DNA of 64,000 nucleotides, taken from Blautia coccoides. GTDB lineage: Bacteria > Bacillota > Clostridia > Lachnospirales > Lachnospiraceae. Where the stretch lies: NCBI RefSeq assembly GCF_034355335.1, contig NZ_CP136422.1:2383501-2447500 (forward strand), written 5' to 3'. A program made the position numbers and the translations under genes. Within the stretch, counting starts at the first letter, position 1. Each line of letters opens with the position of its first letter. Shown piece by piece: positions 38,930-53,124 of the stretch. The notes beneath the pieces were generated by a model. The model saw only the letters and a program-made list of their open reading frames with translations, made no database searches and was not told where the DNA came from.

Positions 38930-38948
38930 CGTACAGTTTATCCGGAAA

Positions 38949-39304: not shown

Positions 39305-39419
39305 AACATCACGATAACCGGAAGCTTATTAAATGCACTTTCAATTATTTATATCCAATATTCCTTTAACAAATTCAGTATATTCGCAAATGGAAAAAAA
39401 GTCAAGTGAAAATGTATAA

Positions 39420-39448: not shown

Positions 39449-39485
39449 TAAAATCAAAAGATGTAAAGTCCCGGAGGAAGAATCT

Positions 39486-40784
39486 ATGAATATTTTAATC
39501 AGAAACGGACGTATCATCGATCCGGCAACAAAAACAGACGAGATAAGTGACCTCTATATAGAGGGCGGAAAGGTGAAAAAGACAGGCAAGGGCCTAAAGC
39601 CCAAGGATAAGACAGATAAAGTCATTGACGCTTCAGGCTGCTATGTAATGCCCGGTCTTATTGACCTGCATGTGCATCTGCGGGACCCGGGGCTGACCTA
39701 CAAAGAGGATATTGTATCAGGCTCCAAGGCAGCAGCCAGAGGCGGGTTCACCACGATCCTTGCCATGCCCAACACCAAGCCGGTCATCGACAGTGCGGAC
39801 CGTGTCAAATATGTTCAGAATAAAGCAAAAGAGTTGTCACCTATCCATGTGATGCAGGTGGGTGCCATTACAAAAAACCAGGCCGGTGAAGAACTGGCTG
39901 ACATTGAGGAGATGATCGAGCAGGGTGCGCCTGCCATCAGCGAGGACGGCAAATCCGTCATGAATGCCAGATTATATAAAAACGCAATGGGGATCGCTGC
40001 CAAATACGATGTTCCTGTATTTGCCCACTGTGAGGACCGGAATATTGTGGGCAAGGGATGTGTCAATGAGGACGAGCACTCCAGAAAGATGGGACTACCT
40101 GGGATCAGCAACGCTGTGGAGGATATCATTGCAGCCAGGGATATTATTCTGGCAAAGGAGACAGGTGCAAAGCTCCATCTGTGCCACTGCTCCACAAAAG
40201 AGAGCGTCCGCATGATAGAGCTGGCAAAAGAGGAGGGCATCAAAGTGACGGGAGAAGTGTGCCCTCATCACTTTACACTGACCTCTGACGATGTGGACCC
40301 CAATGATGCCAACTATAAGATGAACCCGCCTCTGCGGACAAAGGAGGACAGGGATGCCCTGATCCGTGGTCTGAAGGAGGATATTATGGATGTGATCAGT
40401 ACAGACCATGCGCCCCACAGCCGTGAGGAGAAGACCATGCCTATCACCAGAGCGCCGTTTGGTATAGTAGGGCTTGAGACATCTGTTGCGCTCACCATCA
40501 CGGAGCTGGTAGACAAAGGGATACTGACCCCTATGCAGATGGCAGAGAAGATGAGCTATAATCCTGCCAAGGTCATCGGTCTGGACAGAGGTTCCCTGGA
40601 AGAGGGAAAAGCTGCGGATGTGACCATTATCGACCCGGAAGCGGAATATGTCATTGATTCCATGACTTTCCTGTCAAAGGGAAAGAATACGCCTTTCAAT
40701 GGCCGCAAAGTAAAAGGGCTGGTAAAAGCGACAATCTGTGACGGCAGGATCGCCTATATACAGGACGGCATGCTGAAACAATAA
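39486..40784 (+). CDS. pyrC: Dihydroorotase
   Basis: A 432-residue type I dihydroorotase closing carbamoyl aspartate to dihydroorotate. Metal ligands: DLHVHLRDPG (His pair), the Asp/Lys region SEDGKSVM, FAHCED, LHLCHCST and STDHAPH. The start is at 39486 after GGAGGAAG; the open frame from 39420 has no ribosome site. It leads pyrC-pyrF-pyrK-pyrD, with pyrE now detached by the mobile element. Confidence 0.95.
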   Translation: MNILIRNGRIIDPATKTDEISDLYIEGGKVKKTGKGLKPKDKTDKVIDASGCYVMPGLIDLHVHLRDPGLTYKEDIVSGSKAAARGGFTTILAMPNTKPVIDSADRVKYVQNKAKELSPIHVMQVGAITKNQAGEELADIEEMIEQGAPAISEDGKSVMNARLYKNAMGIAAKYDVPVFAHCEDRNIVGKGCVNEDEHSRKMGLPGISNAVEDIIAARDIILAKETGAKLHLCHCSTKESVRMIELAKEEGIKVTGEVCPHHFTLTSDDVDPNDANYKMNPPLRTKEDRDALIRGLKEDIMDVISTDHAPHSREEKTMPITRAPFGIVGLETSVALTITELVDKGILTPMQMAEKMSYNPAKVIGLDRGSLEEGKAADVTIIDPEAEYVIDSMTFLSKGKNTPFNGRKVKGLVKATICDGRIAYIQDGMLKQ

Positions 40785-40858
40785 AAAACAGCACAGGTAC
40801 CGGGAATGCCCGGCAAACTTCTTTTTTCAATAATAATTTATCTCACGGAGGAAGAATC

Positions 40859-41788
40859 ATGATCAATAAACTTACAGAGAAAATCAGGAAGACCCACGCA
40901 CCTATCGTGGTGGGTCTGGATCCTATGCTTAATTATATACCAAAACACATCCAGGAGGCTGCCTTCAAGGAGTGCGGCGAGACACTGGAAGGTGCAGCGG
41001 AGGCTGTATGGCAGTACAACAAAGCGATCGTAGATGCAACCTATGACCTGATCCCCGCGGTAAAACCCCAGATCGCCATGTATGAGCAGTTCGGCATTCC
41101 GGGTCTTATGGCTTTTAAAAAGACTGTGGATTACTGTAAAGAAAAAGATCTGGTTGTCATCGGTGACATTAAGCGCGGTGATATCGGTTCCACCTCTGCG
41201 GCTTATGCAGCCGGCCATATCGGAAAAATCCAGGTGGGTTCAAAAGAATACGCCGGATTTGATGAAGATTTTGTGACCGTGAACCCCTATCTTGGCTCAG
41301 ACGGTGTGAATCCGTTCATTGATGTTTGCAAAAAAGAGAAAAAGGGTCTTTTCATTCTGGTGAAGACATCCAATCCCTCCAGCGGTGAGTTCCAGGATCA
41401 GCTTGTGAACGGCAGACCGCTCTACGAACTGGTGGGAGAGAAAGTGGCAGAATGGGGACAGGAGTGCATGGGTGACACTTACAGCTACATCGGTGCCGTG
41501 GTAGGTGCCACTTATCCGGAAATGGGCAGGGTCCTTCGCCGCATTATGCCGAAAGCCTATATTCTGGTGCCGGGATACGGTGCCCAGGGCGGCCAGGGAA
41601 AAGACCTGGTACATTTTTTCAATGAGGATGGACTGGGAGCCATTGTTAATTCCTCACGCGGTATCATAGCTGCCTACAAGCAGGAGAAATACGCACAGAT
41701 CGGTGAGACGAATTTCGCAGACGCCTCCCGAAAAGCAGTGGAAGATATGATCGCTGATATCGACGGCGCTCTGCAGGCTGCAAAATAA
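40859..41788 (+). CDS. pyrF: Orotidine-5'-phosphate decarboxylase (type 2)
   Basis: A 309-residue OMP decarboxylase of the longer type-2 class. IVVGLDP at the first strand, the catalytic DIKRGDIGSTSAAYA with Asp/Lys/Asp, and PGYGAQGG phosphate loop are intact. It makes UMP from OMP, the product of PyrE. GGAGGAAG precedes the ATG. Confidence 0.95.
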   Translation: MINKLTEKIRKTHAPIVVGLDPMLNYIPKHIQEAAFKECGETLEGAAEAVWQYNKAIVDATYDLIPAVKPQIAMYEQFGIPGLMAFKKTVDYCKEKDLVVIGDIKRGDIGSTSAAYAAGHIGKIQVGSKEYAGFDEDFVTVNPYLGSDGVNPFIDVCKKEKKGLFILVKTSNPSSGEFQDQLVNGRPLYELVGEKVAEWGQECMGDTYSYIGAVVGATYPEMGRVLRRIMPKAYILVPGYGAQGGQGKDLVHFFNEDGLGAIVNSSRGIIAAYKQEKYAQIGETNFADASRKAVEDMIADIDGALQAAK

Positions 41789-41798
41789 GGAGAGGATC

Positions 41799-42575
41799 AT
41801 GGCAAAAGTAAAGATAAGAAGTACAGTGATAAAACAGGAGAAACTGGCTGAGGGTGTGTACAGTATGTGGCTCTCAGCCCGTGAGATCGCTGCAGCTGCA
41901 AAACCGGGACAGTTTATCTCTGTCTACAGCAATGATAAAAGCAGAATGTTGCCCCGCCCCATCAGCTTGTGCGAGATAGACAGGGAGGCGGGAAGCCTGA
42001 GGATCGTATACAGAACAGTGGGCAGCGGGACAGAAGAATTTTCAAAAGCCGGCGCAGGTGACACCTTTGATATATTGGGACCTCTGGGCAACGGCTTCCC
42101 TCTGGAAGCAATCAGGGGAAAACGTGTGCTCATGATGGGTGGCGGTATTGGCGTACCTCCCATGCTGCAGACTGCAAAAGAGGCGGATGCGGATGTGACG
42201 ATCATCTCCGGCTACCGCAGCGCGGACCTTTTTCTTAAGGAAGAACTGGAGGCAGCAGGCAGACTTTTCATCACAACAGAGGACGGAAGCGCAGGCATAA
42301 AAGGAAATGTCATGGATGCAGTCCGTGAAAATAAAATGGAGCCGGACGTTATCCTTGCCTGCGGCCCAACTCCTATGCTGCGCGCTGTAAAGGCTTATGC
42401 TGAGGAGAGGAATATTACATGCTACATCTCTCTTGAGGAGAAAATGGCATGCGGGATCGGTGCCTGTCTTGCATGTGTCTGTCAGTCAAAGGAAGTGGAC
42501 GGTCATTCCCATGTGCATAATAAGCGAATCTGCAAGGACGGTCCTGTATTTTTGAGCACGGAGGTAGAGCTTTGA
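41799..42575 (+). CDS. pyrK: Dihydroorotate dehydrogenase B, electron-transfer subunit
   Basis: A 258-residue FAD and [2Fe-2S] subunit. RPISLCEID binds FAD, GGGIGVPPM the pyridine nucleotide, and the C-terminal cysteines (MACGIGACLACVCQSK ... RICKDGPVF) hold the cluster. It passes electrons from PyrD to NAD+. It lies 10 bp after pyrF; its stop overlaps the pyrD start. Confidence 0.95.
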   Translation: MAKVKIRSTVIKQEKLAEGVYSMWLSAREIAAAAKPGQFISVYSNDKSRMLPRPISLCEIDREAGSLRIVYRTVGSGTEEFSKAGAGDTFDILGPLGNGFPLEAIRGKRVLMMGGGIGVPPMLQTAKEADADVTIISGYRSADLFLKEELEAAGRLFITTEDGSAGIKGNVMDAVRENKMEPDVILACGPTPMLRAVKAYAEERNITCYISLEEKMACGIGACLACVCQSKEVDGHSHVHNKRICKDGPVFLSTEVEL

Positions 42576-43477
42576 TGAATACAAAAGTTAATCTGGCAGG
42601 TGTGGAACTGAAAAATCCGGTCATGACAGCCTCCGGAACCTTTGGCTCCGGGGCAGAATACAGTGAGTTTGTGGATCTCGGCCGCCTGGGTGCTGTTGTC
42701 ACAAAAGGCGTGGCAAGTGTGCCGTGGACGGGAAATCCCACTCCACGTATTGCAGAGACTTCCTGCGGAATGCTCAATGCCATCGGACTGCAGAATCCCG
42801 GTATTGATGTTTTTTGCGAGAGAGACATTCCTTTCCTGAAAAAATATGACACAAAGATCATAGTTAATGTATGCGGCAAGAGCACAGAGGAATACTGTGA
42901 AGTAGTGGAGCGTCTGGCAGGTGAGGCTGTAGACATGCTGGAGATCAACATCTCCTGCCCAAATGTGAAGGAGGGCGGCATTGCCTTCGGACAGGACCCG
43001 AAAGCGGTGGAGACCATCACTAGGGAAGTAAAGAAGTACGCAAAGCAGCCTATCATCATGAAGCTGAGTCCGAATGTGACAGATATCACCGAGATGGCAA
43101 AGGCTGCCGAGGCAGGCGGCGCGGATGTGCTCTCCCTGATCAATACTCTGACAGGCATGAAGATAGATATCAATAAGAGGACGTTTGCCCTGGCAAATAA
43201 AACAGGCGGTATGTCAGGTCCCTGTTTGAAACCCGTAGCTGTCCGCATGGTTTACCAGGTGGCCCGTGCGGTGAAGCTGCCTATTATCGGTATGGGCGGT
43301 ATCTGCAATGCGGAGGATGCCCTGGAATTTATCCTGGCCGGTGCCACGGCTGTGTCCATCGGGACAGCCAACTTCACCAATCCATATGCCACGGTGGAGA
43401 CTGTGCAGGGGATTGAGGATTATATGAAGAAAAATAAAATTGAGGATATTCAATCCCTGATCGGTGTGGTAGAATAG
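42575..43477 (+). CDS. pyrD: Dihydroorotate dehydrogenase B, catalytic subunit
   Basis: A 300-residue class 1B enzyme with FMN. The catalytic Cys is in NISCPNVKEGG, with MTASGTFGSG, IMKLSPNVTDI, GGMSGPCLKPVA and the phosphate-binding GMGGICNAEDALEFI. The ATG at 42575 shares a base with the pyrK stop (TGATG), and GGAGG lies upstream, so the two subunits are made together. The next gene should be pyrE, but only its first codons remain here. Confidence 0.95.
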   Translation: MNTKVNLAGVELKNPVMTASGTFGSGAEYSEFVDLGRLGAVVTKGVASVPWTGNPTPRIAETSCGMLNAIGLQNPGIDVFCERDIPFLKKYDTKIIVNVCGKSTEEYCEVVERLAGEAVDMLEINISCPNVKEGGIAFGQDPKAVETITREVKKYAKQPIIMKLSPNVTDITEMAKAAEAGGADVLSLINTLTGMKIDINKRTFALANKTGGMSGPCLKPVAVRMVYQVARAVKLPIIGMGGICNAEDALEFILAGATAVSIGTANFTNPYATVETVQGIEDYMKKNKIEDIQSLIGVVE

Positions 43478-43506
43478 ACGGGAATAGAAAACTAGGAGGA
43501 AATTCG

Positions 43507-43541
43507 ATGGAAGCGTATAAACAGGAATTTATTGAATTTAT
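43507..43541 (+). repeat. attL (35-bp repeat, left end of IME)
   Basis: The native pyrE start with its native ribosome site (TAGGAGGAAATTCG) directly before it. Identical to attR except T versus C at position 12. Beyond position 35 the sequences diverge, marking the crossover limit. Confidence 0.9.
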
Positions 43542-43557
43542 AACAACGGTTGTGTGA
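43507..43557 (+). pseudogene. Truncated pyrE stub
   Basis: The native pyrE start now reads 12 pyrE-like codons, then four element codons (TTVV) and TGA: a 16-residue peptide MEAYKQEFIEFITTVV. It keeps the chromosomal ribosome site, so ribosomes finishing pyrD will translate it. It is a by-product of integration, with no expected function. Confidence 0.85.
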
Positions 43558-43641
43558 AACTTGTTATAAGCTGTTAAATCCTTGTATATACTGACTTTCT
43601 CTTGAATCCGTATTTCCGTAAATGCCACAGCCTGTTATAAA

Positions 43642-43684
43642 ATGGTGTAGTTTAATACAAAAATGGTGTAGTAAATGGTGTAAA
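43642..43684 (+). repeat. Left arm-type integrase sites (three direct repeats)
   Basis: ATGGTGTAGT at 43642-43651 and 43663-43672, and ATGGTGTAAA at 43675-43684, all in the same orientation about 100-140 bp inside attL. Matching repeats occur near attR, as for the DR2-type arm sites of Tn916-like integrases. Confidence 0.7.
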
Positions 43685-43789
43685 GAAATCGGAAAGAATT
43701 ATTAAATTTAATACCTGAAAATAAAAAGGAGATTGCCAAATTCTATCAGCAATCTTCTTTTTCAATTAGGCAAATGATACTTCTATATT

Positions 43790-44026
43790 TTACTTATTAT
43801 TATTTGCTGGAATAAACTCAAGCAAATCTTCTATACGACATTCTAAAACAGTGCATAATCGGGCAAGTACAGCAATATCCAATCTTGTGATAGTATTGTT
43901 GCAGTAAGCGTTCAGTTGACTACGTTGCATTTCTGCTCTATGTGCTAATTTATTCTTACTAAGTCCACTTGTTTCTAAAAGTTCATCTAATTTTATTTTG
44001 ATTGTACCATAATCTGAATCTATCAA
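43790..44026 (-). CDS. Small XRE regulator 1 of the IME
   Basis: A 78-residue single-domain XRE protein (IKLDELLETSGLSKNKLAHRAEMQRSQLNAYCNNTITRLDIAVLARLCTVLECRIEDLLEF). The start is TTG at 44026, after AGAGGGGG. It is a clear paralogue of the next gene, and both match the Cro/C1-like regulators found near the ends of mobilizable elements. It probably controls its own promoter and excision or transfer genes. Confidence 0.8.
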   Translation of the reverse strand: MIDSDYGTIKIKLDELLETSGLSKNKLAHRAEMQRSQLNAYCNNTITRLDIAVLARLCTVLECRIEDLLEFIPANNNK

Positions 44027-44156
44027 AGTTAGTGCCCCCTCTAAATTATTTAGTACCGTATTGTTTTGATACTTTATGTATACAGTTTAGACATACTGGG
44101 GCAGGAATATAAGTTCTGACATATCTTGTGCAAAAAGTAACACAAACATATATTTG

Positions 44157-44396
44157 CTATTCGGAGGGGTTGCTATATGGTACAAATTCTAGTAAATCCT
44201 CAATGCGACAATCTAATGCAGTACATAATCGAGCAAGTACAGCGGTATCCAATCTTGTAATGGTGTTATTGTAATAAGCATTAATTTGGCTTTTCTGCAT
44301 TTCTGCCTTGTGCGATAATTTGTTACGGCTTAGACCTTTATCTTTTAAAATGTTTTTCAACTTTATTTGTATGAATCCATATTCAGTGTCAGTCAT
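44157..44396 (-). CDS. Small XRE regulator 2 of the IME
   Basis: A 79-residue XRE protein with about two-thirds identity to regulator 1 (NNTITRLD, AVLARLCT, CRIEDLLEF shared). GGGGAGG lies before its ATG. The 130-bp gap to regulator 1 holds its own leader. A tandem duplication with later divergence is the simplest origin. Confidence 0.82.
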   Translation of the reverse strand: MTDTEYGFIQIKLKNILKDKGLSRNKLSHKAEMQKSQINAYYNNTITRLDTAVLARLCTALDCRIEDLLEFVPYSNPSE

Positions 44397-44543
44397 AGAA
44401 ACCTCCCCTTGTCGAAACGTGTAACAAAAATGAGAACGATAATTCTTGATATTTATTGTATAGATGTTAGAATAGAAAAAGAAGTTCTAACATGTATGGT
44501 TAGACTAGTTGCACAAACATAAGTTCTTAGAGGAGAGGTACAC

Positions 44544-44831
44544 ATGAAAGAAGTAAAAGAGTTATTAAAGCTTGCAGCAGATAGTATGAAGAATGAGACA
44601 TTGTGTCATTTACTGGAAAGTGATATGGAATATCAGAAAAGGTCAGAAGAAGCTAAGCAGGCATTACGAGATGTTGATGAATTAGAATTGACAGAAAAGC
44701 AACGATATATTGTGGATACTTTAATCGCAAGGAAAGATGAAGTAGAGTATGATTATCATGTGAACGCATACATGGCAGGAATGCTGGACGGCTATGAAAT
44801 TTTAAAAATGTTCAATCTGACGAGAGAGTAA
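44544..44831 (+). CDS. Small helical acidic protein of the IME, unknown
   Basis: A 95-residue protein, almost wholly helical and acidic (MKEVKELLKLAADSMKNETLCHLLESDMEYQKRSEEAKQALRDVDELELTEKQRYIVDTLIARKDEVEYDYHVNAYMAGMLDGYEIL). Similar short proteins are common in Lachnospiraceae mobile elements, but I cannot name the family securely. AGAGGAGAGG precedes the ATG. It is divergent from the XRE pair. Confidence 0.7.
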   Translation: MKEVKELLKLAADSMKNETLCHLLESDMEYQKRSEEAKQALRDVDELELTEKQRYIVDTLIARKDEVEYDYHVNAYMAGMLDGYEILKMFNLTRE

Positions 44832-44855
44832 TAATTAAGCCTGTAAACCAGTGAG

Positions 44856-44901
44856 GTAAAGGAACAAGGCGAAGCCGAGACGCCGTAGGGCAGTCCTTTA
44901 C
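44856..44901. other. Structured segment in the IME
   Basis: GTAAAGGA (44856-44863) pairs with TCCTTTAC (44894-44901) and inside it GGCG (44868-44871) with CGCC (44881-44884). The stretch is GC-rich against an AT-rich background and non-coding. It may be a small structured RNA or a protein-binding site. Confidence 0.4.
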
Positions 44902-44934
44902 GGAACGAACGGAGCCGGTACCACCATGATGTAT

Positions 44935-44976
44935 AAGAGGACTTGAAAGGTCACAACCTTGCAAGTCCTCTTGTTT
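44935..44976. terminator. Bidirectional terminator inside the IME
   Basis: AAGAGGACTTG with CAAGTCCTCTT, and a nested AAGG/CCTT, followed by GTTT. It separates the convergent small acidic gene and XRE gene. Confidence 0.8.
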
Positions 44977-44986
44977 ATGATATGGG

Positions 44987-45820
44987 TTACTTCTGTTCGG
45001 ATTCATACTTACGGAATACCGCTTCTTTTGTGGCTTCTCTAAGAAAGCTGTCCTGTTTGATAAAGTCCAGATTTTCATTTAGAATGTAAGCGTCTGATTC
45101 ACAATCATATTCATAAGGCATAATCTGAGCCATATAGTCGTTGTTGTCAATTCCATAATAAATCAACTTAGAATCCCGTAAAGTCAAGCCAAGTGTCAGA
45201 AAGCCGGAAGTGAAGTAATTATTATTATGTGGGAGTGTCAGCTTGTCCGCAGCATGGGAAAAGTCAATGCGCTCCTCATTCTGCTCCTCTCCAAAAGCCG
45301 GGATGATGTGCAGGGTGTTGTTCTTCCTGTCAGCGTAGGCATTGCATACCAGTACGGAATAGTCTGCCCTCTGGATGATTCCCTCAAAGAAATTCCCGGA
45401 ATAAGCGGTGGGCTGGTAAAATATTGCTGTCTCTTTCGTGGAAAGATTGTGGTAGGTCATAAATCCATTGACGAGCCTTACAATCTCCATATCATCCCCG
45501 TATGTATACCCATTCTGCTGTATCATCTGGTAGAAGTTCTCCGCAAATTCTTCCGGCAACTGAATCCCCAGCTTTTCCACTATCAGCATATCTACATATT
45601 CTTTAAATGAGCCATAGAGCAGTTCATTGAGCGTGATGTTGCCAAGGGTGGCTATCTGTTTCATCCGTTTCTCATTAGGAAGATTTACGCCTTTTTCCCA
45701 ACTGTTCACAGAGCCTTTCGGGGCATTGTCAATGATTTCCCCGAACTTCTGCATACTGTAACCGTATTTCTTCCGTATCTGTAAAATCCGTTTTCCAACC
45801 GCTTCTTTGTTCACAAACAT
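44987..45820 (-). CDS. XRE-family regulator, long form
   Basis: A 277-residue protein with an N-terminal HTH (AVGKRILQIRKKYGYSMQKFGEIIDNAPKGSVNSWEKGVNLPNEKRMKQIATLGNITLNELLYG) and a ~200-residue C-terminal region with no motif I know (several Tyr/Phe, acidic stretches). The layout suggests a ligand-sensing repressor for the IME. Start at 45820 with GAGGTG 5 bp upstream; the GTG at 45826 lies within that site. It is divergent from the transfer module. Confidence 0.8.
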   Translation of the reverse strand: MFVNKEAVGKRILQIRKKYGYSMQKFGEIIDNAPKGSVNSWEKGVNLPNEKRMKQIATLGNITLNELLYGSFKEYVDMLIVEKLGIQLPEEFAENFYQMIQQNGYTYGDDMEIVRLVNGFMTYHNLSTKETAIFYQPTAYSGNFFEGIIQRADYSVLVCNAYADRKNNTLHIIPAFGEEQNEERIDFSHAADKLTLPHNNNYFTSGFLTLGLTLRDSKLIYYGIDNNDYMAQIMPYEYDCESDAYILNENLDFIKQDSFLREATKEAVFRKYESEQK

Positions 45821-45958
45821 AATCACACCTCATTTCTGGATTCATCATACCACAATATAAGGAGAAATGTAAGGGGTAAAATATAAAAACTTTTGAAAAG
45901 ATATGGAAAGATAATGTAATACTTCAAGAATAAAGTAATGATAAAAGTAAAATATGTG

Positions 45959-45987
45959 TTGACAAAACAGGAAATAGAGTATATGAT
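45959..45987 (+). promoter_or_regulatory. Promoter of the IME mobilisation module
   Basis: TTGACA (45959-45964) and TATGAT (45982-45987), 17-bp spacing, upstream of the DUF961-like gene and divergent from the long XRE gene, whose product probably represses it. Confidence 0.7.
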
Positions 45988-46013
45988 AGTGCCAAGAGGT
46001 AAGGAGAAAAGTA

Positions 46014-46436
46014 ATGAAATCAATAAAGCAGATATGGTTAAGAAAAGGACTTGTTACACTTACCAGCAGCTTATTCACGAAGATTCAAGAAAAGGAGACA
46101 AAAAATATGCAGATTACAATGACAAAAGAGCAGGTCAAAGAAGCGTTCGGGGAACTGCGCTACATGGGTGCTGATTACTGCTACCGCTACGACAAGGAAA
46201 CCAGAAAGCGGACAGAGGAAGTCGAAGCGTTAAAACTCCACCTTGGCAGTATCAAGTTAGGGAACAGCATTGACATCCGGCTGGAAACAACAGAGCTTCC
46301 GAAGATTGAACCCTATTCTGTAGTCGAACTGCAAGCGCCGGTATATGACCCATATGTGCAGAGGGGGAACTACGCTACATTGGTAGAACGGTTCACCTGC
46401 AAAGGGATTCGGGCGGTTTCCGGCAAGAACGTGTAG
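46014..46436 (+). CDS. DUF961-like accessory protein of the IME
   Basis: Up to 140 residues. Two starts fit: ATG at 46014 (AAGGAG 6 bp upstream) and ATG at 46107 (AAAGGAG upstream, giving 109 residues and beginning MQITMTKEQVKEAFGEL). The body, LKLHLGSIKLGNSIDIRLET ... YSVVELQAPVYDPYVQRGNYATLVERFTCKGIRAV, resembles the DUF961 proteins encoded just ahead of the relaxase in Tn916 and ICEBs1; I hold that with moderate confidence. Helicase-processivity or accessory roles are known for such proteins. Confidence 0.6.
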   Translation: MKSIKQIWLRKGLVTLTSSLFTKIQEKETKNMQITMTKEQVKEAFGELRYMGADYCYRYDKETRKRTEEVEALKLHLGSIKLGNSIDIRLETTELPKIEPYSVVELQAPVYDPYVQRGNYATLVERFTCKGIRAVSGKNV

Positions 46437-46550
46437 CATATCACGCTTTGAAATCTCCGCCTGTATCTTCCCAAAAGATACAGGTGAGAGATTTTGAAGC
46501 GGTGGCAGAGCCACAAAGGAAAGGGCAGGTGATAACGCACGGAAAACAGA

Positions 46551-47621
46551 ATGTTTTCAGAACCCTCCTATACTAACAGGAGGGTAACTCGTCAGAAAGA
46601 AGAATTAACAGCACTGATTGACTGGTGTCAGATTACGGTAAAGGGTTTGGATGTGTTTACTATCATTGAGGACATTCTCCGGATTCCCTTAAATCTTATG
46701 GAACTGCATTGTAAAGGCAAGGGAATAGCCGGACATGAACTGATAGCCGGATTTGACAATATCAAAATCTTAAAGCCAACAGGTAAGGCACAATATGAGG
46801 GATTCCAGATACTAATGAGTGGTTCTGGATGCCGGAATTACGAGAACTTTCTTACAATCAACAAGGAAACATGGTTTGATTTCTTGGAAAGGGTTTGTAA
46901 ATATGATGTGAATTTTCCCCGGATAGATTTGGCGATTGATGATAGGAAACCATACCTTCACATTCCGACACTTGTTCAAATGACGGAAGAGGGTATGCTG
47001 TCCAGTCAGTTAAGAAATATTTCAGAAAATGGTTCGGGTGAATTGGGCGAAGAAGCAATGATACATAAGGGGAAAAGCCTGTATTTGGGAAGTAAGACCA
47101 GTGATTTCAGGATAGTCTTTTATGAAAAAGGATATGAACAGGCTGAAAAGTATGGAAAAGAAGCAGATACGGACTGGAACAGGTATGAACTACGGTTCCG
47201 GCAAGAACGGGCAGTTAAGGCAGTACAAGCACTGATACAGCACAGGGATGTGGCACAGGTGGCGTTGCAGGTGCTAAATGAAAAGGTCAGATTCTTGCAG
47301 AAGCCGGAGAACAGCACCACAACCAGAAAACGTCTGTACCCAACTTACACACCGTGGGAAGAATTCATGCAAGACATAGGGAAAATCAAGCTGACCATGA
47401 ACCCACAGAAGAAAACACTGGAACGTACATGGGACTGGCTTACAACCTCTGTTGCCCCGTCATTGAAGATGTTTTCAGAGATAGGGAAACTGGATAATCG
47501 GGACTATATCGGGCTACTGGTGGAGAATGGGAAAATGAACACCGTGCAACAGCGGATATATGATGATTACAGAAAATCAATTCAGCTACCCAAATATGAT
47601 AGTAAGGAGATGGTATTATAG
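46551..47621 (+). CDS. MOBT relaxase (Rep_trans / replication initiation factor family)
   Basis: A 356-residue protein of the Tn916 Orf20/ICEBs1 NicK family: ALIDWCQITVKGLDVFTIIEDIL, GFDNIKILKPTGKAQYEGFQILMSGSGCRNYEN, PRIDLAIDDRKPYLHIPTLVQ and WNRYELRFRQERA, the last giving the motif with acidic metal ligand, then the C-terminal region with the nicking Tyr. It nicks oriT and starts rolling-circle transfer using a helper element's conjugation machinery. The frame upstream is closed, so 46551 is the first ATG. It overlaps the oriT-like hairpin. Confidence 0.88.
   Translation: MFSEPSYTNRRVTRQKEELTALIDWCQITVKGLDVFTIIEDILRIPLNLMELHCKGKGIAGHELIAGFDNIKILKPTGKAQYEGFQILMSGSGCRNYENFLTINKETWFDFLERVCKYDVNFPRIDLAIDDRKPYLHIPTLVQMTEEGMLSSQLRNISENGSGELGEEAMIHKGKSLYLGSKTSDFRIVFYEKGYEQAEKYGKEADTDWNRYELRFRQERAVKAVQALIQHRDVAQVALQVLNEKVRFLQKPENSTTTRKRLYPTYTPWEEFMQDIGKIKLTMNPQKKTLERTWDWLTTSVAPSLKMFSEIGKLDNRDYIGLLVENGKMNTVQQRIYDDYRKSIQLPKYDSKEMVL
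46562..46585 (+). other. Probable oriT, within the relaxase 5' end
   Basis: A 24-bp site: A, CCCTCCT (46563-46569), eight bases ending CTAAC, AGGAGGG (46578-46584), T. From memory the ICEBs1 oriT has the same layout and length: a C-rich arm, CTAAC, a G-rich arm, lying at the start of nicK. Shared CTAACAGG in the nick region supports this as the origin of transfer. Matched from memory, not by alignment. Confidence 0.75.
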
Positions 47622-47674
47622 ACAAAGCATTATTGAATGTGAAAGAAGTAAGTGAATATTTAGCCTGCAAATAA
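47618..47674 (+). pseudogene. Excisionase N-terminal fragment, start codon lost
   Basis: In the frame starting at ATA 47618 the sequence reads I-DKALLNVKEVSEYLACK and stops. It looks like the start of an excisionase (xDxALLxVKEVSEYL). The expected ATG is ATA, AAGGAG lies upstream, and the frame ends where the IS110 insertion probably begins. It overlaps the relaxase stop. Confidence 0.5.
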
Positions 47675-47739
47675 AAAGTCAAGGCTAAATTGAAGAACAT
47701 TGAAAATTTTATACAGGTTGAAAATTAGGTATCAAAATA

Positions 47740-47763
47740 AGACCACCACACCAGTGCTGGTCT
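47740..47763 (-). terminator. Terminator of the IS110 transposase
   Basis: On the minus strand AGACCA and TGGTCT pair (47763-47758 and 47745-47740) and are followed by TATTTT. An inner ACCAGTGCTGG palindrome helps. Confidence 0.6.
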
Positions 47764-47780
47764 GAGAATTATAATGATGA

Positions 47781-48989
47781 TTAGGATTCTGGAAGAGATG
47801 AAAGATATTCTTTCACTCGTCCGTAATAGATTCTTAGAAACTTGTTGGCACCTGCAGTCATATAGACATAATAAGGCTTGCCTTGTGCCCGTTTCTTATC
47901 TATGAACTGATACACAGGATCATCCTGTGGGTGTGTTTTTATTAAGACATCCATTACCTGAAATAAAGTCTTTCTAAGATCAGATGAGCCTCGTTTTGAA
48001 GTTGGAACACTTTTTTGTTCATAACTTCCCGATTCATTAACACCGGGATCTACACCGGCAAAAGCAGTAATAGCACCTTTATGGGTAAAACGGGAAACAT
48101 CACCAATCTCAGCCATCAATTGAGGACCAAGCGAAGCACCAACCCCTTTCATCGCCATAACAATAGGATACTCTGGGAGTTTGGATGCAGTTTCATTCAT
48201 AAGTGTGCGTAGTGATTCAACGGTTGTAGAAGCACTGTTAAGCTGGTTTACAGCCTGCTTGATAATAAGCTTTGTAATGTCATCCTTAGGAAGTACAGGA
48301 ACAAGTTCCTTTGCTTTTCCATAGATTTCCTCAGCTTTGGATTGGCTGAAGTTGTACTTCTTACGTTTGCACCAGTTTTGATAATGGTCGATAAAGGCAT
48401 TCAGAGACATTTTACGGACACAGTCCACATGCCAGTATGTAGATGCAAAATCAACCCATTTCTGGCTGCCGTCACTGCGTGCAGGACTGTCAAAGTAAGT
48501 ATTAACACCAGGATAGGTTTGGTCAAGGATGCCGATAAGATTATTTTTCATAGCCGTCTTGTGCTTCATGTAAAAGCCGAACTGACGGTTCATGGTTTTG
48601 AGCTGATTGCGTAATTCATCCATAACATTATACTGTTTAAGATTTTGCCATTTGTCAAGAGCATATCGGGCAATCTTAACAGCATCCGCTTTATCAGATT
48701 TCACTTTACGAAGAGAATCATTATCAAAGTCTTTGATAAGTTTTGGGTTAATGGCACTGACGAAAAGATTTGCCTTTGAAAGCTGATGGGCGAGGACTTC
48801 ATAATAACGTCCTGTGTGCTCCATCACGATTCGGGACTCCCCTTCAACAGAGTTGATGAGTTCTACAAGTGAATGGATATCACTGGCTGTGTGTTTGATT
48901 TCGAAAGGTGCGGAAACAATTTCACCGAAAGGTCGCATGATAGCAACCATACTCTTACCTTTTGAAACATCGATACCTACTGCGTTCAT
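47781..48989 (-). CDS. IS110-family transposase (DEDD, RuvC-like)
   Basis: A 402-residue transposase with the N-terminal RuvC-like DEDD domain (first Asp in AVGIDVSKGKS, Glu in VMEHTGRYYE, Asp residues in KSDKADAVKIARYA) and the C-terminal Tnp_20 domain (MKGVGASLGPQLMAEIGDVSRF, FAGVDPGVNESGSYEQKSVPTSKRGSSDLRKTLF, with the probable catalytic Ser in SKRGSS). It is full length with AAGGAGTG before the ATG. Such elements insert without inverted repeats, guided by a bridge RNA from the non-coding end. Confidence 0.93.
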   Translation of the reverse strand: MNAVGIDVSKGKSMVAIMRPFGEIVSAPFEIKHTASDIHSLVELINSVEGESRIVMEHTGRYYEVLAHQLSKANLFVSAINPKLIKDFDNDSLRKVKSDKADAVKIARYALDKWQNLKQYNVMDELRNQLKTMNRQFGFYMKHKTAMKNNLIGILDQTYPGVNTYFDSPARSDGSQKWVDFASTYWHVDCVRKMSLNAFIDHYQNWCKRKKYNFSQSKAEEIYGKAKELVPVLPKDDITKLIIKQAVNQLNSASTTVESLRTLMNETASKLPEYPIVMAMKGVGASLGPQLMAEIGDVSRFTHKGAITAFAGVDPGVNESGSYEQKSVPTSKRGSSDLRKTLFQVMDVLIKTHPQDDPVYQFIDKKRAQGKPYYVYMTAGANKFLRIYYGRVKEYLSSLPES

Positions 48990-49095
48990 AAATTGTCACT
49001 CCTTAAGATTATTGCAATGGATAAATACCAGTTTTACTCATTGCCTATTCAATCTACTGTGGTGTGACGCGAATGCACCTATGGCGATTCAACCT
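48990..49095 (-). ncRNA. Candidate bridge-RNA region of the IS110 element
   Basis: About 106 nt between the transposase start and the probable element end, non-coding, with several short repeats (TTGAAT twice, CATTCGC echoed outside the end). In IS110-group elements this position encodes the bridge RNA. CCTGCA occurs at both likely ends (47664-47669 and 49093-49098), a candidate core. RNA boundaries are not readable by eye. Confidence 0.4.
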
Positions 49096-49204
49096 GCATA
49101 AAACGAACGCTGCGAATGAGGAGCTGGTTATCAGTCTAATTTACGGACGCGAAGTCCAAGATTGGAAGACGATATACCGATTGCTCCATCATTATACAGC
49201 TTAA
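49091..49204 (+). pseudogene. C-terminal fragment of an IME protein cut by IS110
   Basis: The frame reads NLHKTNAANEELVISLIYGREVQDWKTIYRLLHHYTA and stops 8 bp before xis. It has the look of a helix-turn-helix C-terminus, with no start codon, ending at the probable IS110 junction on the left. Its N-terminal part is missing from the window. Confidence 0.4.
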
Positions 49205-49212
49205 GCAACAAG

Positions 49213-49398
49213 ATGGATAATTCCTTACTGGCTGTAAGGGATATTAACCATAAACATATTGTAGTAGGGATTGGAGATACAAAAGCCAGAGAGCTTTTGA
49301 GGAATCCATATAACGGTTTTACCATTAGGATTGGCAATAGGTTATATGCACATAAGGCAAAACTGGATGTGTGGTTGAAAAATCAGGTTGTAGGATAA
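49213..49398 (+). CDS. xis: Excisionase (Xis)
   Basis: A 61-residue protein, MDNSLLAVRDINHKHIVVGIGDTKARELLRNPYNGFTIRIGNRLYAHKAKLDVWLKNQVVG, a winged-helix excisionase of the MerR-like type with the family core GIGDTKARELL and IRIGNRLYAHKAKLDVWL. It sits before int as usual and should direct excision. A frame open from TTG 49162 adds 17 residues. The ribosome site is weak (AAGCAAC), which may mean coupling to the truncated gene upstream. Confidence 0.78.
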   Translation: MDNSLLAVRDINHKHIVVGIGDTKARELLRNPYNGFTIRIGNRLYAHKAKLDVWLKNQVVG

Positions 49399-49533
49399 AA
49401 ATAATGACTGGAAATCAGAGAAAAACCTTTGATTTCCGGTCAAATTCCCGAATTGAAAATCTCTATCAGGTATGGTAAAATTGAAAGGAATTTAATAGTT
49501 CTTTTCCCGATTTTGCTAAGAAAGGAGGCAGTG

Positions 49534-50676
49534 ATGGGTAAATCACTAAACGGGAAAGAATTAGGAACTGGTATCTCCCAACGAAAGGACGGACTGTATC
49601 AGGCTAGATTTATGAATCGTTTTGGAAAGAGACAGACAATCTATGCAAAGACTTTGAATGAGGTTAGGCAGAAACTCCGAAACGAACAGTATAATGATGA
49701 AAAAGCTATCAATGTTGTAGACACAAATATAACATTAGATGAATGGTTTGATATTTGGCTGGATACTTGTAAGAAAAATTGCAGAAGTTCAACAAAAGGT
49801 TCATACATTACCCACTACAAGCGGATTCAAGAAGCACTTGGGTGGAGAAAACTAACATCATTGAACCTTATTATCATGCAAGAAGCAATCAACAAACTGG
49901 ACACAGATAATGCAAGAAAAAATTCAAAAAAGATATTAGTGGATATGTTGAATAAAGCAGTTGATACGGATTTGCTTATTAAGAATGTTGCTAAACAGCT
50001 TAATACTGTGATTTCCAAAGAGGAAAAACAGGAAAGACGGGTATTAACAGTTCGTGAAACAGATATATTCTTAGAAAAAGCAAAAGGAACTTTTTATTAT
50101 AATCTTTTTGTGTTAGCATTAGAAACAGGATTGCGTGTGGGAGAATTATGTGCTTTACAATGGGAAGATGTAAATTTTAGGAAGAAAATTCTTCATGTAA
50201 GGCATACTTTATGTTATTTCAGTAAAGACGGTAAGTATGTTTTTGAAATGCATGATACAAAAACCAACAATGGCAGAAGAAATATTCCTTTAACTGCAAA
50301 AGCAATGAATGTGTTAAAATGTCAGAGACAACAAAAGCAGGAAATTGTTTTAAAAGGAAAAACTGCATTAAAGGAGTATGAAACCCTTGTTTTTGTTACA
50401 AAAAATAATCAGCCTACACAACAATTTTTAATTAAACAATGTCTAGATTTAATTATTCAAAAAATTAACAAGACAGGAACAGAATTTCAGCCTTTTACGC
50501 CACATACATTCCGACATACTTTTGCTACAAGAGCAATCGAAAGTGGGATGAACCCAAAGACACTGCAAAGAATTTTAGGACATGGTACATTACAGATGAC
50601 AATGGACTTGTATTGCCATGTGACAGAAGATACTATGTTTGAGGAAATGCAAAAATTTGAAAAAAGGTGTAGTTGA
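49534..50676 (+). CDS. int: Tyrosine recombinase / integrase
   Basis: A 380-residue integrase of the Tn916/lambda type. An N-terminal arm-binding domain (KDGLYQARFMNRFGKRQTIYAKTLNEVRQKL), a core-binding SAM-like domain (~70-160), and a catalytic domain with Arg in ETGLRVGELCALQWEDV, Lys in TKTNNGRRNI, HTFRHTFATR, LGH and the Tyr in MDLYCHV. All catalytic residues are visible. Start at 49534 after AAAGGAGG; the frame from 49429 lacks a ribosome site. It lies next to attR and catalyses insertion at pyrE. Confidence 0.93.
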   Translation: MGKSLNGKELGTGISQRKDGLYQARFMNRFGKRQTIYAKTLNEVRQKLRNEQYNDEKAINVVDTNITLDEWFDIWLDTCKKNCRSSTKGSYITHYKRIQEALGWRKLTSLNLIIMQEAINKLDTDNARKNSKKILVDMLNKAVDTDLLIKNVAKQLNTVISKEEKQERRVLTVRETDIFLEKAKGTFYYNLFVLALETGLRVGELCALQWEDVNFRKKILHVRHTLCYFSKDGKYVFEMHDTKTNNGRRNIPLTAKAMNVLKCQRQQKQEIVLKGKTALKEYETLVFVTKNNQPTQQFLIKQCLDLIIQKINKTGTEFQPFTPHTFRHTFATRAIESGMNPKTLQRILGHGTLQMTMDLYCHVTEDTMFEEMQKFEKRCS

Positions 50677-50704
50677 GTTTGAAATGGTGTAAAATTGGTG
50701 TAGT
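50664..50704 (+). repeat. Right arm-type integrase sites (three direct repeats)
   Basis: AAGGTGTAGT (50664-50673), ATGGTGTAAA (50684-50693) and TTGGTGTAGT (50695-50704), same orientation as the left set. The first overlaps the end of int. Confidence 0.7.
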
Positions 50705-50726
50705 AGGGTATAAGGATAAAAAATAA

Positions 50727-50763
50727 GGGCTTGAAAAAGCCCGTAAATACGGAGGTTTAAGGA
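50727..50763 (+). promoter_or_regulatory. Element-supplied leader of pyrE
   Basis: A short hairpin GGGCTT-GAAA-AAGCCC (50727-50742) without a T-run, then GGAGG (50751-50755) and AAGGA (50759-50763) before the pyrE ATG at 50767. This replaces the native ribosome site left behind at attL. pyrE transcription should come from int read-through or a weak promoter near 50695-50722 (TTGGTG, 16 bp, TAAAAA). Confidence 0.55.
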
Positions 50764-50766
50764 TAT

Positions 50767-50801
50767 ATGGAAGCGTACAAACAGGAATTTATTGAATTTA
50801 T
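50767..50801 (+). repeat. attR (35-bp repeat, right end of IME)
   Basis: The first 35 bases of the intact pyrE frame, equal to attL except C at position 12. Confidence 0.9.
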
Positions 50802-51444
50802 GGTGGACTGCCAGGTGCTGAAATTCGGAGACTTCGTCACAAAAAGTGGACGAAATACCCCATTTTTCGTAAACACCGGATTTTATAGAACAGGAGCACA
50901 GCTTTGCAAGCTGGGGGAATACTATGCCAGAGCCATTGCAGACAAGTTCGGATTTGATTTTGATGTACTATTCGGTCCGGCTTACAAAGGAATACCGTTG
51001 ACTGTAGCGGCAACCATGGCGATCAGTGAGTTTTACGGGAAAGATATCCGTTACTGCTCCAACAGGAAAGAAGTAAAGGATCACGGAGATAAGGGAATCC
51101 TTCTGGGAAGTCCTATTGAGGACGGCGACAAGGTAGTCATCATTGAGGACGTGACAACAGCAGGTACCTCTATTGCTGAGACACTCCCCATTATCAAGGC
51201 GCAGGGCAGTGTAAGCCCTATCGGTCTTGTGGTTTCTGTAGACCGCATGGAGCGGGGACAGGGCAGTAAGAGCGCGCTCAAAGAAATAGAAGAAAAGTAC
51301 GGCCTGGCCACAACTGCCATTGTAACCATGGAGGAAGTGGTAGAGCATCTGTACAACAGAGAATACAAAGGAAAAGTTATCATTGATGATAAGATGAAAG
51401 CAGCCATTGATGCATATTATGAGAAATATGGCGCAGAAGAATAA
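50767..51444 (+). CDS. pyrE: Orotate phosphoribosyltransferase
   Basis: A 225-residue PRT-family enzyme making OMP from orotate and PRPP. The PRPP-binding motif is VVIIEDVTTAGTS; FGPAYKGIPL and CSNRKEVKDHGD are the orotate and flexible loops. The first ~12 codons lie inside attR, so this end comes partly from the mobile element and matches the displaced stub in amino acids. It is detached from pyrC-F-K-D by 7.26 kb yet intact, so pyrimidine synthesis should still work if expression is kept. Confidence 0.96.
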   Translation: MEAYKQEFIEFMVDCQVLKFGDFVTKSGRNTPFFVNTGFYRTGAQLCKLGEYYARAIADKFGFDFDVLFGPAYKGIPLTVAATMAISEFYGKDIRYCSNRKEVKDHGDKGILLGSPIEDGDKVVIIEDVTTAGTSIAETLPIIKAQGSVSPIGLVVSVDRMERGQGSKSALKEIEEKYGLATTAIVTMEEVVEHLYNREYKGKVIIDDKMKAAIDAYYEKYGAEE

Positions 51445-51487
51445 AGACAATCATCTGAATTTGTCGGGACGGAAGGAAGTGTGCTAG

Positions 51488-51640
51488 GTGAACGAGAAGA
51501 TTTATAAGACTATGTCATGTGCCGGGGTCACTGCTTTGGTACTGGGAATCATCGTAATGGTGACAAGTATTGTCAGCGGCGTTATGCTTATTATCAACGG
51601 AACCAGACTTTTAAAAAAGAGAAGCGAAATCACATTCTAG
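51488..51640 (+). CDS. Small single-pass membrane protein
   Basis: A 50-residue protein that begins with GTG: VNEKIYKTMSCAGVTALVLG, then IIVMVTSIVSGVMLII, then NGTRLLKKRSEITF. One long hydrophobic helix with basic residues on the C-terminal side. GGAAGGAAG lies 6 bp before the GTG. A hairpin follows. No family recognised. Confidence 0.6.
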   Translation: MNEKIYKTMSCAGVTALVLGIIVMVTSIVSGVMLIINGTRLLKKRSEITF

Positions 51641-51663
51641 CCGGACAGAATAACACAAAATTA

Positions 51664-51696
51664 AGGAAGAGGGCGTTTTATGCAGCCCTCTTCTTC
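51664..51696 (+). terminator. Terminator after the small membrane protein
   Basis: GAAGAGGGC (51666-51674) pairs with GCCCTCTTC (51685-51693); the following tract is only moderately T-rich. Confidence 0.6.
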
Positions 51697-51733
51697 ATAC
51701 ATAGGAGAGACTATGCAATAGGAGTTTAGAACA

Positions 51734-52222
51734 TTGAAAAATAAAACAAAAAGGAAAATTAAAGCGGCGGGAACAGTATTGTTTCTGGTTTATATACTTG
51801 CGCTTGTCTATTTCCTGTTTTTTGCGGAGCGGTTCAGCGGCGTGGAATTTGCCCAGAGAGAGTATCATTATAACCTGACTCCCCTGCAGGAGATCAAAAG
51901 ATTTTGGATGTACAGAGAACAGCTTGGAGTATTGGCAGTGGTATCTAATCTGTTCGGAAATGTAATAGGTTTTGTTCCTTTTGGCCTGATCCTTCCCATC
52001 ATTTGCAGAAATGCAAGGGGATTCTTTTTTATTACTTTTTCCGGTTTTGCACTGAGCCTTTGCGTGGAAACCATACAGCTTGTCACTAAGCTGGGATGCT
52101 TTGATGTGGATGATATGATTTTGAATACAACTGGTGCGGCAATAGGATATCTTTTATTTGCCGTCAGCCATTATATATATAGAAAATACAGGAGGAAACA
52201 GCATGGCAAAAAAACGCTATAA
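51734..52222 (+). CDS. VanZ-family membrane protein
   Basis: A 162-residue protein with four to five membrane helices and the VanZ core YHYNLTPLQEIKRFW ... NLFGNVIGFVPFGLILPII ... FALSLCVETIQLVTKLGCFDVDDMILNTTGAAIGYLLF. VanZ-like proteins are linked to teicoplanin resistance in enterococci, but most chromosomal members have no proven role. The start is TTG at 51734 with AGGAG 9 bp upstream. It overlaps the next gene by 20 bp. Confidence 0.85.
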   Translation: MKNKTKRKIKAAGTVLFLVYILALVYFLFFAERFSGVEFAQREYHYNLTPLQEIKRFWMYREQLGVLAVVSNLFGNVIGFVPFGLILPIICRNARGFFFITFSGFALSLCVETIQLVTKLGCFDVDDMILNTTGAAIGYLLFAVSHYIYRKYRRKQHGKKTL

Positions 52223-52523
52223 ATATTCATTTACAAAAAAAAGACATACCAGGGGAGGCGTAGAGTCTTCTATTCTTGCACTGGTATCCTGCCTGCTGTT
52301 TTTAGGAGCAGCAATCTGTGCCCTGGCATTGAACGGACAGGGCGGCATGTACCTGGGAGCTTTGGGGATTTTGGCTCTTGGTCTGTCGGTCTATGGGTTT
52401 ATACTGGGACTGAAAAGTTTTTCCGAACAGAATCGCGAATTTCTTTACAGCAAGGTTGGCTCAGTGGCCAATGGCGTGCTGATGGTCATATGGATCGCAC
52501 TGTTTCTGGTAGGCATCTCATAA
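52203..52523 (+). CDS. Small membrane protein (DUF6142-like)
   Basis: A 106-residue protein: basic N-terminus (MAKKRYKYSFTKKRHTRGG) and three hydrophobic helices (ILALVSCLLFLGAAICALAL; YLGALGILALGLSVYGFILG; VANGVLMVIWIALFLVGI). Start at 52203 after AGGAGG; it overlaps vanZ. I believe the family is DUF6142, moderately sure. Confidence 0.65.
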   Translation: MAKKRYKYSFTKKRHTRGGVESSILALVSCLLFLGAAICALALNGQGGMYLGALGILALGLSVYGFILGLKSFSEQNREFLYSKVGSVANGVLMVIWIALFLVGIS

Positions 52524-52533
52524 GGAGGATAAA

Positions 52534-53124
52534 ATGGACGAGAGACTGAAAAAACAAATGGAATTTATGCTGGAAGTGGATAAGAGTAAATTTGTCCGCC
52601 GCCAGACATATCTGTCAGACGGGATCCGCAGGGAAAACGATGCGGAACATTCCTGGCATCTGGCGCTGATGGCTGCCCTTTTGTCAGAGCATGCCAATGA
52701 AACCATAGACACGGCCAAGACCATGCTTATGGTACTGATACATGATATAGTAGAAATTGACGCTGGGGATACCTACGCCTACGATGAGGCCGGACATATG
52801 GATAAGCGGGAGCGGGAGGTAAAGGCAGCAAAACGCATATTCGGACTTCTTCCGGAGGACCAGGCTGAAAAAATGCTGGATCTGTGGGAAGAGTTTGAAA
52901 CATTCGAGACACCGGAGGCTAAGTTCGCCCATTCCCTTGACTGTGTTCAGCCGCTGATGCTCAATGACGCCACAGACGGCAAGTCCTGGCGGGAGCATGA
53001 GATCAAGAAATCACAGGTTATGAAAAGAAATGCAAAAACAGCGCAGGGTTCAGAGACGCTGATGGACTATGTGGACGGTATTCTTGAAAAAAATGTGAAA
53101 AAAGGGAATCTTAGAGATGAGTAA
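52534..53124 (+). CDS. HD-domain phosphohydrolase
   Basis: A 196-residue HD protein of the YfbR/HDDC2 group, which dephosphorylate deoxynucleoside monophosphates. Metal ligands: His in AEHSWHLALMA, the HD pair in VLIHDIVEIDAGD, and the distal Asp in FAHSLDCVQPL. It overlaps the M29 aminopeptidase gene by 8 bp, so both are translated together. AAGGAGG precedes the ATG. Confidence 0.88.
   Translation: MDERLKKQMEFMLEVDKSKFVRRQTYLSDGIRRENDAEHSWHLALMAALLSEHANETIDTAKTMLMVLIHDIVEIDAGDTYAYDEAGHMDKREREVKAAKRIFGLLPEDQAEKMLDLWEEFETFETPEAKFAHSLDCVQPLMLNDATDGKSWREHEIKKSQVMKRNAKTAQGSETLMDYVDGILEKNVKKGNLRDE

Follow-up and report, generated by a model that had tools for sequence, protein, structure and literature searches.

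A mobile element at the start codon of pyrE in Blautia coccoides very probably belongs to a site-specific family that replaces the pyrE leader

The window analyzed in this work is a stretch of 64,000 nucleotides from Blautia coccoides (contig NZ_CP136422.1, positions 2,383,501 to 2,447,500; coordinates below count from its first letter), in which a block of 7.26 kb lies exactly at the start codon of pyrE, a gene of pyrimidine synthesis. This block very probably belongs to a site-specific family of mobile elements, which target the pyrE start and swap the pyrE leader. The integration site, the empty site, the arm-type sites at both ends, the integration module common to different carriers and the remains of elements are read in the sequences themselves; the crossover position, the transcription route and the mobility are deduced from them.

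The block is bounded by a 35-bp direct repeat (43507-43541 and 50767-50801, the copies being 7,260 bp apart) with a single mismatch at base 12, and its GC content is 0.30-0.45, compared with about 0.50 outside. The left copy begins a 16-codon pyrE stub ending with TGA, 29 bp downstream of the pyrD stop codon, and the right one opens an intact 225-codon pyrE (TIGR00336, 156.3 bits vs the cut-off of 106.8). The preliminary description of this DNA had reported a repeat with one mismatch starting at the pyrE ATG on both sides of an AT-rich block, with a pyrE stub on the left and intact pyrE with a new leader on the right; the coordinates, the mismatch, the GC content and the reading frames all agree with it.

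Among 20 genomes of the genus, pyrE was found in 19 (E ≤ 1e-60). Two of them, G003 and G008 (genomes and loci are designated by our G and L numbers), lack the block and have contiguous pyrD and pyrE separated by 29 bp, with a single pyrE start, and their PyrE proteins are 97% and 96% identical to that of the window. The window flanks joined in silico (1,613 bp) showed 1,444 and 1,442 identities to G003 and G008, respectively, with two gap positions each. Base 12 is C in both empty sites and in the right copy of the window, and T in its left copy. Eight further genomes of the genus have pyrD 132 bp to 6 kb upstream of pyrE, with no match to the window integrase, and in the remaining eight pyrD is outside the fetched stretch. 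Two pyrE starts without this integrase do occur in G306 (L134:5144) and G239 (L135:4345), where the pyrE stubs are followed by one and the same left-end-like sequence, and these stubs are probably left-end remains of elements. Three further genomes (G131, G364 and G369) also show two pyrE starts, but as these come from two pyrE genes, the three were not retained as carriers of an element.

The integrase gene (int) of the block points into pyrE, its stop codon being located 90 bp before the pyrE ATG. Both the Tn916 DNA-binding domain (Integrase_DNA, PF02920) and the catalytic domain (PF00589) of tyrosine integrases were recognized by Pfam in its product, and the best PDB match of its profile is Int of Tn1549 (6EMY, 8.6e-37). 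A scan of the genome collection revealed eight related integrase loci, six of them with pyrE directly after int. The survey of the family recovered the integrase in 11 of 397 genomes (E ≤ 1e-95): that of the window, five with intact pyrE after int (G408, G339, G320, G195 and G133), one with only the 5′ end of pyrE (G177) and four with other sequence (G149, G216, G049 and G329). The class survey (4 of 391 genomes, E ≤ 1e-90) added G627, also with the pyrE 5′ end only. With L011 and L015, which are contigs of G320 and G216, counted once each, the three surveys comprise 18 distinct loci. Tn1549 has low site specificity, and the relaxed target choice typical of the Tn916/Tn1549 type was not observed here: int precedes intact pyrE at 11 loci (ten besides the window, so that the window integrase is not alone beside pyrE), only the 5′ end of pyrE at two more and other sequence at five. 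The spacing between the int stop and the pyrE ATG is 71-101 bp across the 11 loci, with GGAGG or GGAGA within the last 20 bp. The genomes bearing a related integrase at pyrE are assigned to one family, Lachnospiraceae; G627, placed in another family in the search table and with 6% contamination, was not used to claim a spread beyond it. In G627 (L212:17877) and G177 (L070:6199) int is followed by the 5′ end of pyrE and then by other DNA without pyrE; the right end of G627 looks nearly identical to that of G408.

In the integrase tree, from which L016, L170 and full-length L060 (replaced by its open part) were left out, the pyrE loci fell into several groups meeting at one unresolved fork, the loci with other targets grouped apart with weaker support (87/79), and L014, located at the start of another gene, paired with the pyrE locus L013 (100/100). 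The L014 integrase (L014:2203-2330) is 58% identical and lies at the 5′ end of that gene (predicted start MVKHIILWQLKED), with the element end containing a ribosome site; the integrase group may have a general preference for gene starts. Three integrases 46-52% identical to that of the window (L071, L072 and L073) were by eye followed by a common stretch like AAGTTTTAYATTTTTCAGGT, which may be another target that they share. A protein search, of which 120 of 2,317 matches were listed, was not used further.

The features of the element and its borders are listed below.

42572..43477, + strand: pyrD, the last intact gene of the pyrC-pyrF-pyrK-pyrD run ahead of the element
43507..43541, + strand: left attachment site, first 35 bp of pyrE in the stub, with T at base 12
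43641..43682, + strand: left arm-type repeats, three copies of AATGGTGTA
43790..44396, - strand: two small Cro/C1-type helix-turn-helix (HTH) regulators, 43790-44026 and 44157-44396 (Pfam HTH_26)
44544..44831, + strand: open reading frame (ORF) of 95 aa, no family match
44987..45826, - strand: XRE-type regulator of 279 aa (Pfam HTH_3)
46014..46436, + strand: ORF of 140 aa, no family match
46551..47621, + strand: Rep_trans/MobT-like rolling-circle initiator or relaxase (PF02486, 1e-58; PF18106, 1.9e-26; NCBIfam MobT, 1.5e-55, below the equivalog cut-off; PDB 4CIJ Rep, 2.9e-21)
47622..47661, + strand: N-terminal part of the excisionase gene, severed by IS110 (our reading of the sequence; no family match)
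47662..49267, - strand: IS110-family insertion, transposase at 47781-48989
49268..49398, + strand: C-terminal part of the excisionase gene, by identity to ORFs before related integrases
49453..49481, + strand: predicted integrase promoter, TTGAAA-17-TAAAAT with extended -10, 10/12 matches; proposed pyrE promoter in the integrated state
49534..50676, + strand: tyrosine integrase of 380 aa (PF00589, PF02920)
50683..50702, + strand: right arm-type repeats, two copies of AWTGGTGTA
50751..50755, + strand: element-supplied Shine-Dalgarno sequence of pyrE, GGAGG (sequence reading)
50767..50801, + strand: right attachment site, first 35 bp of intact pyrE; proposed crossover ATGGAA at 50767-50772
50767..51444, + strand: intact pyrE, 225 aa (Pfam, NCBIfam)

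The excisionase-like ORF is 44-74% identical to the ORFs preceding related integrases and was recognized by neither Pfam nor NCBIfam. It is split by the IS110 copy at about 47662-49267 (the ends are the smallest common extent of the genomic copies and are uncertain by a few bp), which carries the DEDD_Tnp_IS110 and Transposase_20 domains; four further near-identical copies at known coordinates elsewhere in the genome are useful for defining the IS110 target. The relaxase, excisionase and integrase genes named in the preliminary description thus stand unequally: the integrase is confirmed, the excisionase gene is present in split form, and the role of the Rep_trans protein as a relaxase is putative, its score being far under the MobT cut-off. 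No match was obtained with Rfam within positions 38000-53500 of the window, nor for the 8.1-kb locus in the plasmid collection.

The motif AWTGGTGTA occurs five times in the 64 kb, each time near one of the two element ends and nowhere else (0.74 expected; none of 100 shuffles reached five). In four other complete elements, motifs picked by eye from the right end of each (GTGTGTA, TGGYACAGT, TGGCACA or TGGTGTA) recur at the left end, so that the motif varies between elements, yet it is present at both ends in each of the five. The left copies start at 163 and 175 in G408, G133 and G339, and the pair with the same 12-bp spacing in the window starts at 158 and 170, i.e., 5 bp nearer the end. Such end repeats have the layout expected of the arm-type sites of a two-site tyrosine integrase, with which the Integrase_DNA domain and the similarity to Tn1549 Int agree. 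Beside the left arm sites of G408, G195, G339 and G320 (L138), and also in L169, a conserved CTATCGTAACTTATC-like stretch, possibly an excisionase site, was noticed by eye; by the same inspection it was not seen in the left end of the window element. When the left and right sites of five complete elements were compared from -20 to +40 of the ATG (G320 was left out owing to its differing arm motifs), runs of at least three positions identical in all pairs were limited to positions 1-6 and 19-26, the former being ATGGAA (GTGGAA in G195). Because the host C at base 12 puts the crossover of the window element to the left of this base, we infer that it took place inside ATGGAA, i.e., within the start codon and codon 2. 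The crossover region of Tn1549 is 5-7 nt (PMC5871717).

The part common to the different carriers is the excisionase together with the integrase. The G408 element (11.9 kb) encodes a MobA/VirD2-type relaxase (PF03432), MobC, and actin-like, ParA-like and TPR/STAND-type proteins; that of G195 (4.2 kb) encodes HU-like and tubulin-like proteins, and in that of G133 (7.6 kb) the single ORF scanned has no Pfam family. The window Rep_trans protein had no match (E ≤ 1e-4) in the 15 loci compared, some of them containing an incomplete element. In G339, 139.4 kb lie between the pyrD-stub and int-pyrE (G339:C2:292259-431663; L139, L163-L168 and L065), and this element is a prophage, since terminase, portal, tape-measure, DNA polymerase, nicotinamide phosphoribosyltransferase and Ku families were recognized in it with PHROGs; a ligase-like and a Y-family-polymerase-like ORF were noticed by eye. 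One virus record contains a terminase identical to that of G339 and may be the same prophage; 29 of the 132 G339 ORFs match one related virus record, an nrdD-like gene (named by eye) being near one end in both. The G339 phage presumably acquired the integration module. The left stub of G320 carries TGGTACAG repeats and its int end TGGTGTA (L138 and L126), and G320 probably holds two different elements at one pyrE. The same target is thus used by a prophage (G339) and a relaxase-bearing element (G408), a likeness to the dusA family in mode only. Of the preliminary reading of the block as an integrative mobilizable element (IME), site-specific integration is upheld, and the pyrE-specific family turns out to be broader than IMEs, with a 139-kb prophage among its carriers and several genomes holding remains only.

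On the proposed mechanism, an integrase of the Tn916/Tn1549 type would recognise the conserved first codons of pyrE and exchange strands within ATGGAA. Integration would keep pyrE from codon 3 onward, sever the gene from its operon and replace the sequence upstream of the ATG by the element end with its arm-type sites and Shine-Dalgarno sequence, so that the PyrE protein would be kept while its promoter and ribosome site would be swapped. The integration module is common to unrelated carriers, namely a Rep_trans/MobT-like element, a MobA/VirD2-type element and a prophage. With int oriented toward pyrE and its end only 90 bp away, the most likely source of pyrE transcripts in the occupied state is the integrase promoter, with transcription passing through int. 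In a promoter scan, a noisy one (37 sites vs 24.2 expected), the + strand of the int-pyrE interval was free of promoter-like sites, and the match ahead of int is the best candidate for the new pyrE promoter. In 11 int leaders of differing sequence, hairpins pair the ribosome site in seven, and z is below -2 in eight; the window leader (49482-49542) has another pairing pattern (z -2.25), and no excess is seen in L009, L055 and L011. Such a hairpin, being a predicted structure, could hold back integrase translation while transcription continues. Decay of an element may leave a stretch serving pyrE, and the integrase promoter would then become the permanent pyrE promoter.

Remains of this kind were sought by comparing 67 regions (some genomes being repeated), each comprising at most 500 bp of the DNA that precedes pyrE or a pyrE stub, with the xis-int-right-end DNA of 17 elements. 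Twelve regions, three of them occupied sites, matched element DNA at E ≤ 1e-5, as against none of 67 in both the reversed and the reverse-complemented controls; of 96 random pieces two matched, both overlapping the pyrE leader of G011 itself. In G004 and G012 the integrase promoter joins directly to the post-int arm sites and leader, int being gone; G011 retains the promoter, an arm site and the leader ahead of pyrE; G049 retains the promoter together with the first codons of int and part of an excisionase gene; and a second contig of G364, possibly foreign to the assembly, retains the promoter and the leader. G001, G177 and G369 match in the promoter and/or leader only; their leaders could be native, and leaders matching the integrase promoter only were not taken as established remains. 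The integrase promoter, with int partly or wholly gone, is kept at no fewer than four unoccupied pyrE sites. Those of G004, G012, G011 and the G364 contig are alike and may descend from one event; with G049 counted separately, the retained promoters probably reflect two or more captures. A wider reading, which we put forward tentatively and hold to be somewhat short of probable, is that in Lachnospiraceae phages and mobilizable elements have long used the pyrE start as a docking site and that the integrase promoter was captured at least twice as a permanent pyrE promoter; loss of int transcription in the occupied state would then mean loss of pyrimidine synthesis, making the element costly to lose, and the hairpin over the integrase ribosome site of many members may let transcription reach pyrE at low integrase synthesis.

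Several observations weigh against the site-specific reading or parts of it. Intact pyrE is missing after int at seven of the 18 loci (G177 and G627 with its 5′ end; L014, G149, G216, G049 and G329 with other sequence), and the integrase is uncommon, being confined to the window's own genome among the 20 of the genus (E ≤ 1e-80) and to the few family and class genomes counted above. In the virus collection, where the window integrase as a query gave two loci and an alignment 15 (the two included), pyrE was not found in the fetched DNA of the 12 examined of these 15 more distant loci; 27 virus loci have related terminases, and the integrase was not matched in the 10 records tested, which may be fragments. 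The eye-chosen arm motifs also occur inside the G408 (2) and G339 (16) elements, and the left stub and int end of G320 carry different ones. The crossover position is argued from one base difference, which could be a later mutation at base 12, and from shared runs, of which positions 19-26 are also common to both ends. There are three weak + strand promoter matches (9/12) inside int, and at E ≤ 1e-3 the reversed control for remains gave two of 67 matches (real regions, 21). Excision, transfer and transcription are, finally, predictions from the DNA.

Among other explanations, an assembly error or a segmental duplication of the pyrE start instead of integration has a practically negligible probability: two pyrE genes per assembly can indeed give two starts, as in G131, G364 and G369, but G000 is a single 6.1-Mb contig, and the same architecture recurs elsewhere with different cargo and cognate arm sites. 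The reverse direction of transfer, in which the elements took the integrase promoter and leader from a host pyrE and the unoccupied genomes show the ancestral promoter, would fit the element leader's resemblance to pyrE leaders without arm sites (L033 and L035), and the promoter or leader matches of G001, G177 and G369 fit either direction. A captured host promoter, however, would not bring the integrase arm sites found before pyrE in G004, G012 and G011, nor the int start codons and excisionase fragment found there in G049, and a similar promoter layout was seen by eye ahead of related integrases not at pyrE; we regard this direction as quite improbable.

The two remaining alternatives concern what the window element is at present. 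Of the features by which an IME is recognized, an own site-specific integrase and attachment (att) sites are present, and its mobilization is presumed from a Rep_trans protein with an NCBIfam MobT score (188.6 bits) far below the equivalog cut-off of 600. The block might instead be an integrated rolling-circle plasmid, its Rep_trans protein being a replication initiator with no role in mobilization. This low score would suit such an origin, as would the nearest solved protein (Rep, 4CIJ) and the lack of a coupling protein among the scanned block ORFs; yet the MobT protein does both jobs in Tn916 and ICEBs1 (PMC5704250), and 21 of the 45 streptococcal IMEs that have a MobT relaxase alone lack a coupling protein (PMC5357655), so that we consider a plasmid origin rather unlikely. 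A Pfam and NCBIfam scan of nine element ORFs detected no mating-pore genes; a MobT-type relaxase is expected to need a TcpA-type helper (PMC5704250, PMC5357655), and four VirD4-type coupling genes are present elsewhere in the genome. Because IS110 splits xis, the window copy is probably immobile or locked, its excision being probably impaired unless another Xis acts. It may accordingly have entered as described and now be a dead island, with pyrE dependent on the element leader and no mobility left, and the chances of this appear evenly balanced. Besides the IS110 inside xis, the left end without the CTATCGTAACTTATC-like stretch points that way; on the other hand, no damage is apparent in the integrase, the arm sites, the two att copies or the Rep_trans gene, a 98% identical integrase from another source (P0001) was among the matches listed, and the Xis of another element could act in trans.

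Integration at the 5′ end of a gene has precedents. The dusA-specific elements supply a new promoter and restore the reading frame (PMC4482086, PMC8409611), SXT at prfC is also named as a case (PMC8409611), and streptococcal integrative and conjugative elements and IMEs at the 5′ ends of rbgA, ftsK and ebfC leave the N-terminus unchanged, the promoter-bearing upstream sequence being replaced in some (PMC4701971, PMC5357655). The opinion in the preliminary description that such targeting is less usual has to be qualified accordingly, as integration with a replaced promoter is already described for dusA, prfC, rbgA and ebfC (PMC8409611, PMC4701971); its other statement, that no pyrE-specific family is named, holds for the literature matches listed on pyrE with integrative elements, prophages and genomic islands, subscription papers being outside their coverage. 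The word pyrE stands in neither main text of PMC4701971 and PMC5357655, and the matching passages of PMC2647930, PMC5537653 and PMC8190616 proved to be false matches. As far as the searches show, pyrE as a target inside an operon with the crossover at the start codon is new among the matches listed; the novelty of an integrase promoter kept by the target gene is a thinner claim, coming from one broad literature search with 12 of 498 matches listed.

The closest parallel in design is the dusA elements, in which prophages, islands and IMEs likewise have an integrase family in common that targets the 5′ end of a housekeeping gene. IMEVchUSA3 alters the first 35 residues of DusA (PMC8409611), whereas the pyrE elements leave PyrE unchanged, with a crossover proposed at the start codon, and the dusA elements are found in Proteobacteria, whereas the pyrE elements are found in Clostridia, with the target inside an operon and the promoter remaining at unoccupied sites. 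The rbgA/ftsK/ebfC elements share the unchanged N-terminus and, in some, the upstream swap. With the Tn916/Tn1549 integrases the window integrase shares the closest solved structure, the Integrase_DNA domain and a crossover size comparable to ATGGAA; unlike Tn916, which has low site specificity (PMC4701971), the pyrE family recurs at one gene with crossover bases common to its members. The SpyCI satellite prophages also integrate upstream of a housekeeping gene at its 5′ end, but they silence mutL when integrated (PMC4701971), whereas the end of the pyrE element carries a ribosome site and a predicted integrase promoter pointing into pyrE. The MobT IMEs of streptococci (IME_oriT and IME_Sag2603_tRNAlys; PMC5704250) are similarly small, with a Rep_trans-type relaxase and a tyrosine integrase, and differ in their targets and in that the window Rep_trans protein is below the MobT equivalog cut-off.

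As far as the searches show, this would be the first element family described whose docking site is the start codon of a gene of pyrimidine synthesis, with unrelated carriers including a 139-kb prophage. The gene pyrE is selectable both ways, by uracil prototrophy and by 5-fluoroorotate resistance, so that integration, excision and promoter capture would be measurable by plating. The remains suggest that mobile DNA rewires a core metabolic operon, pyrE leaving the pyr operon and keeping the integrase promoter. If this is true, a core biosynthetic gene would run on the switch of a mobile element.

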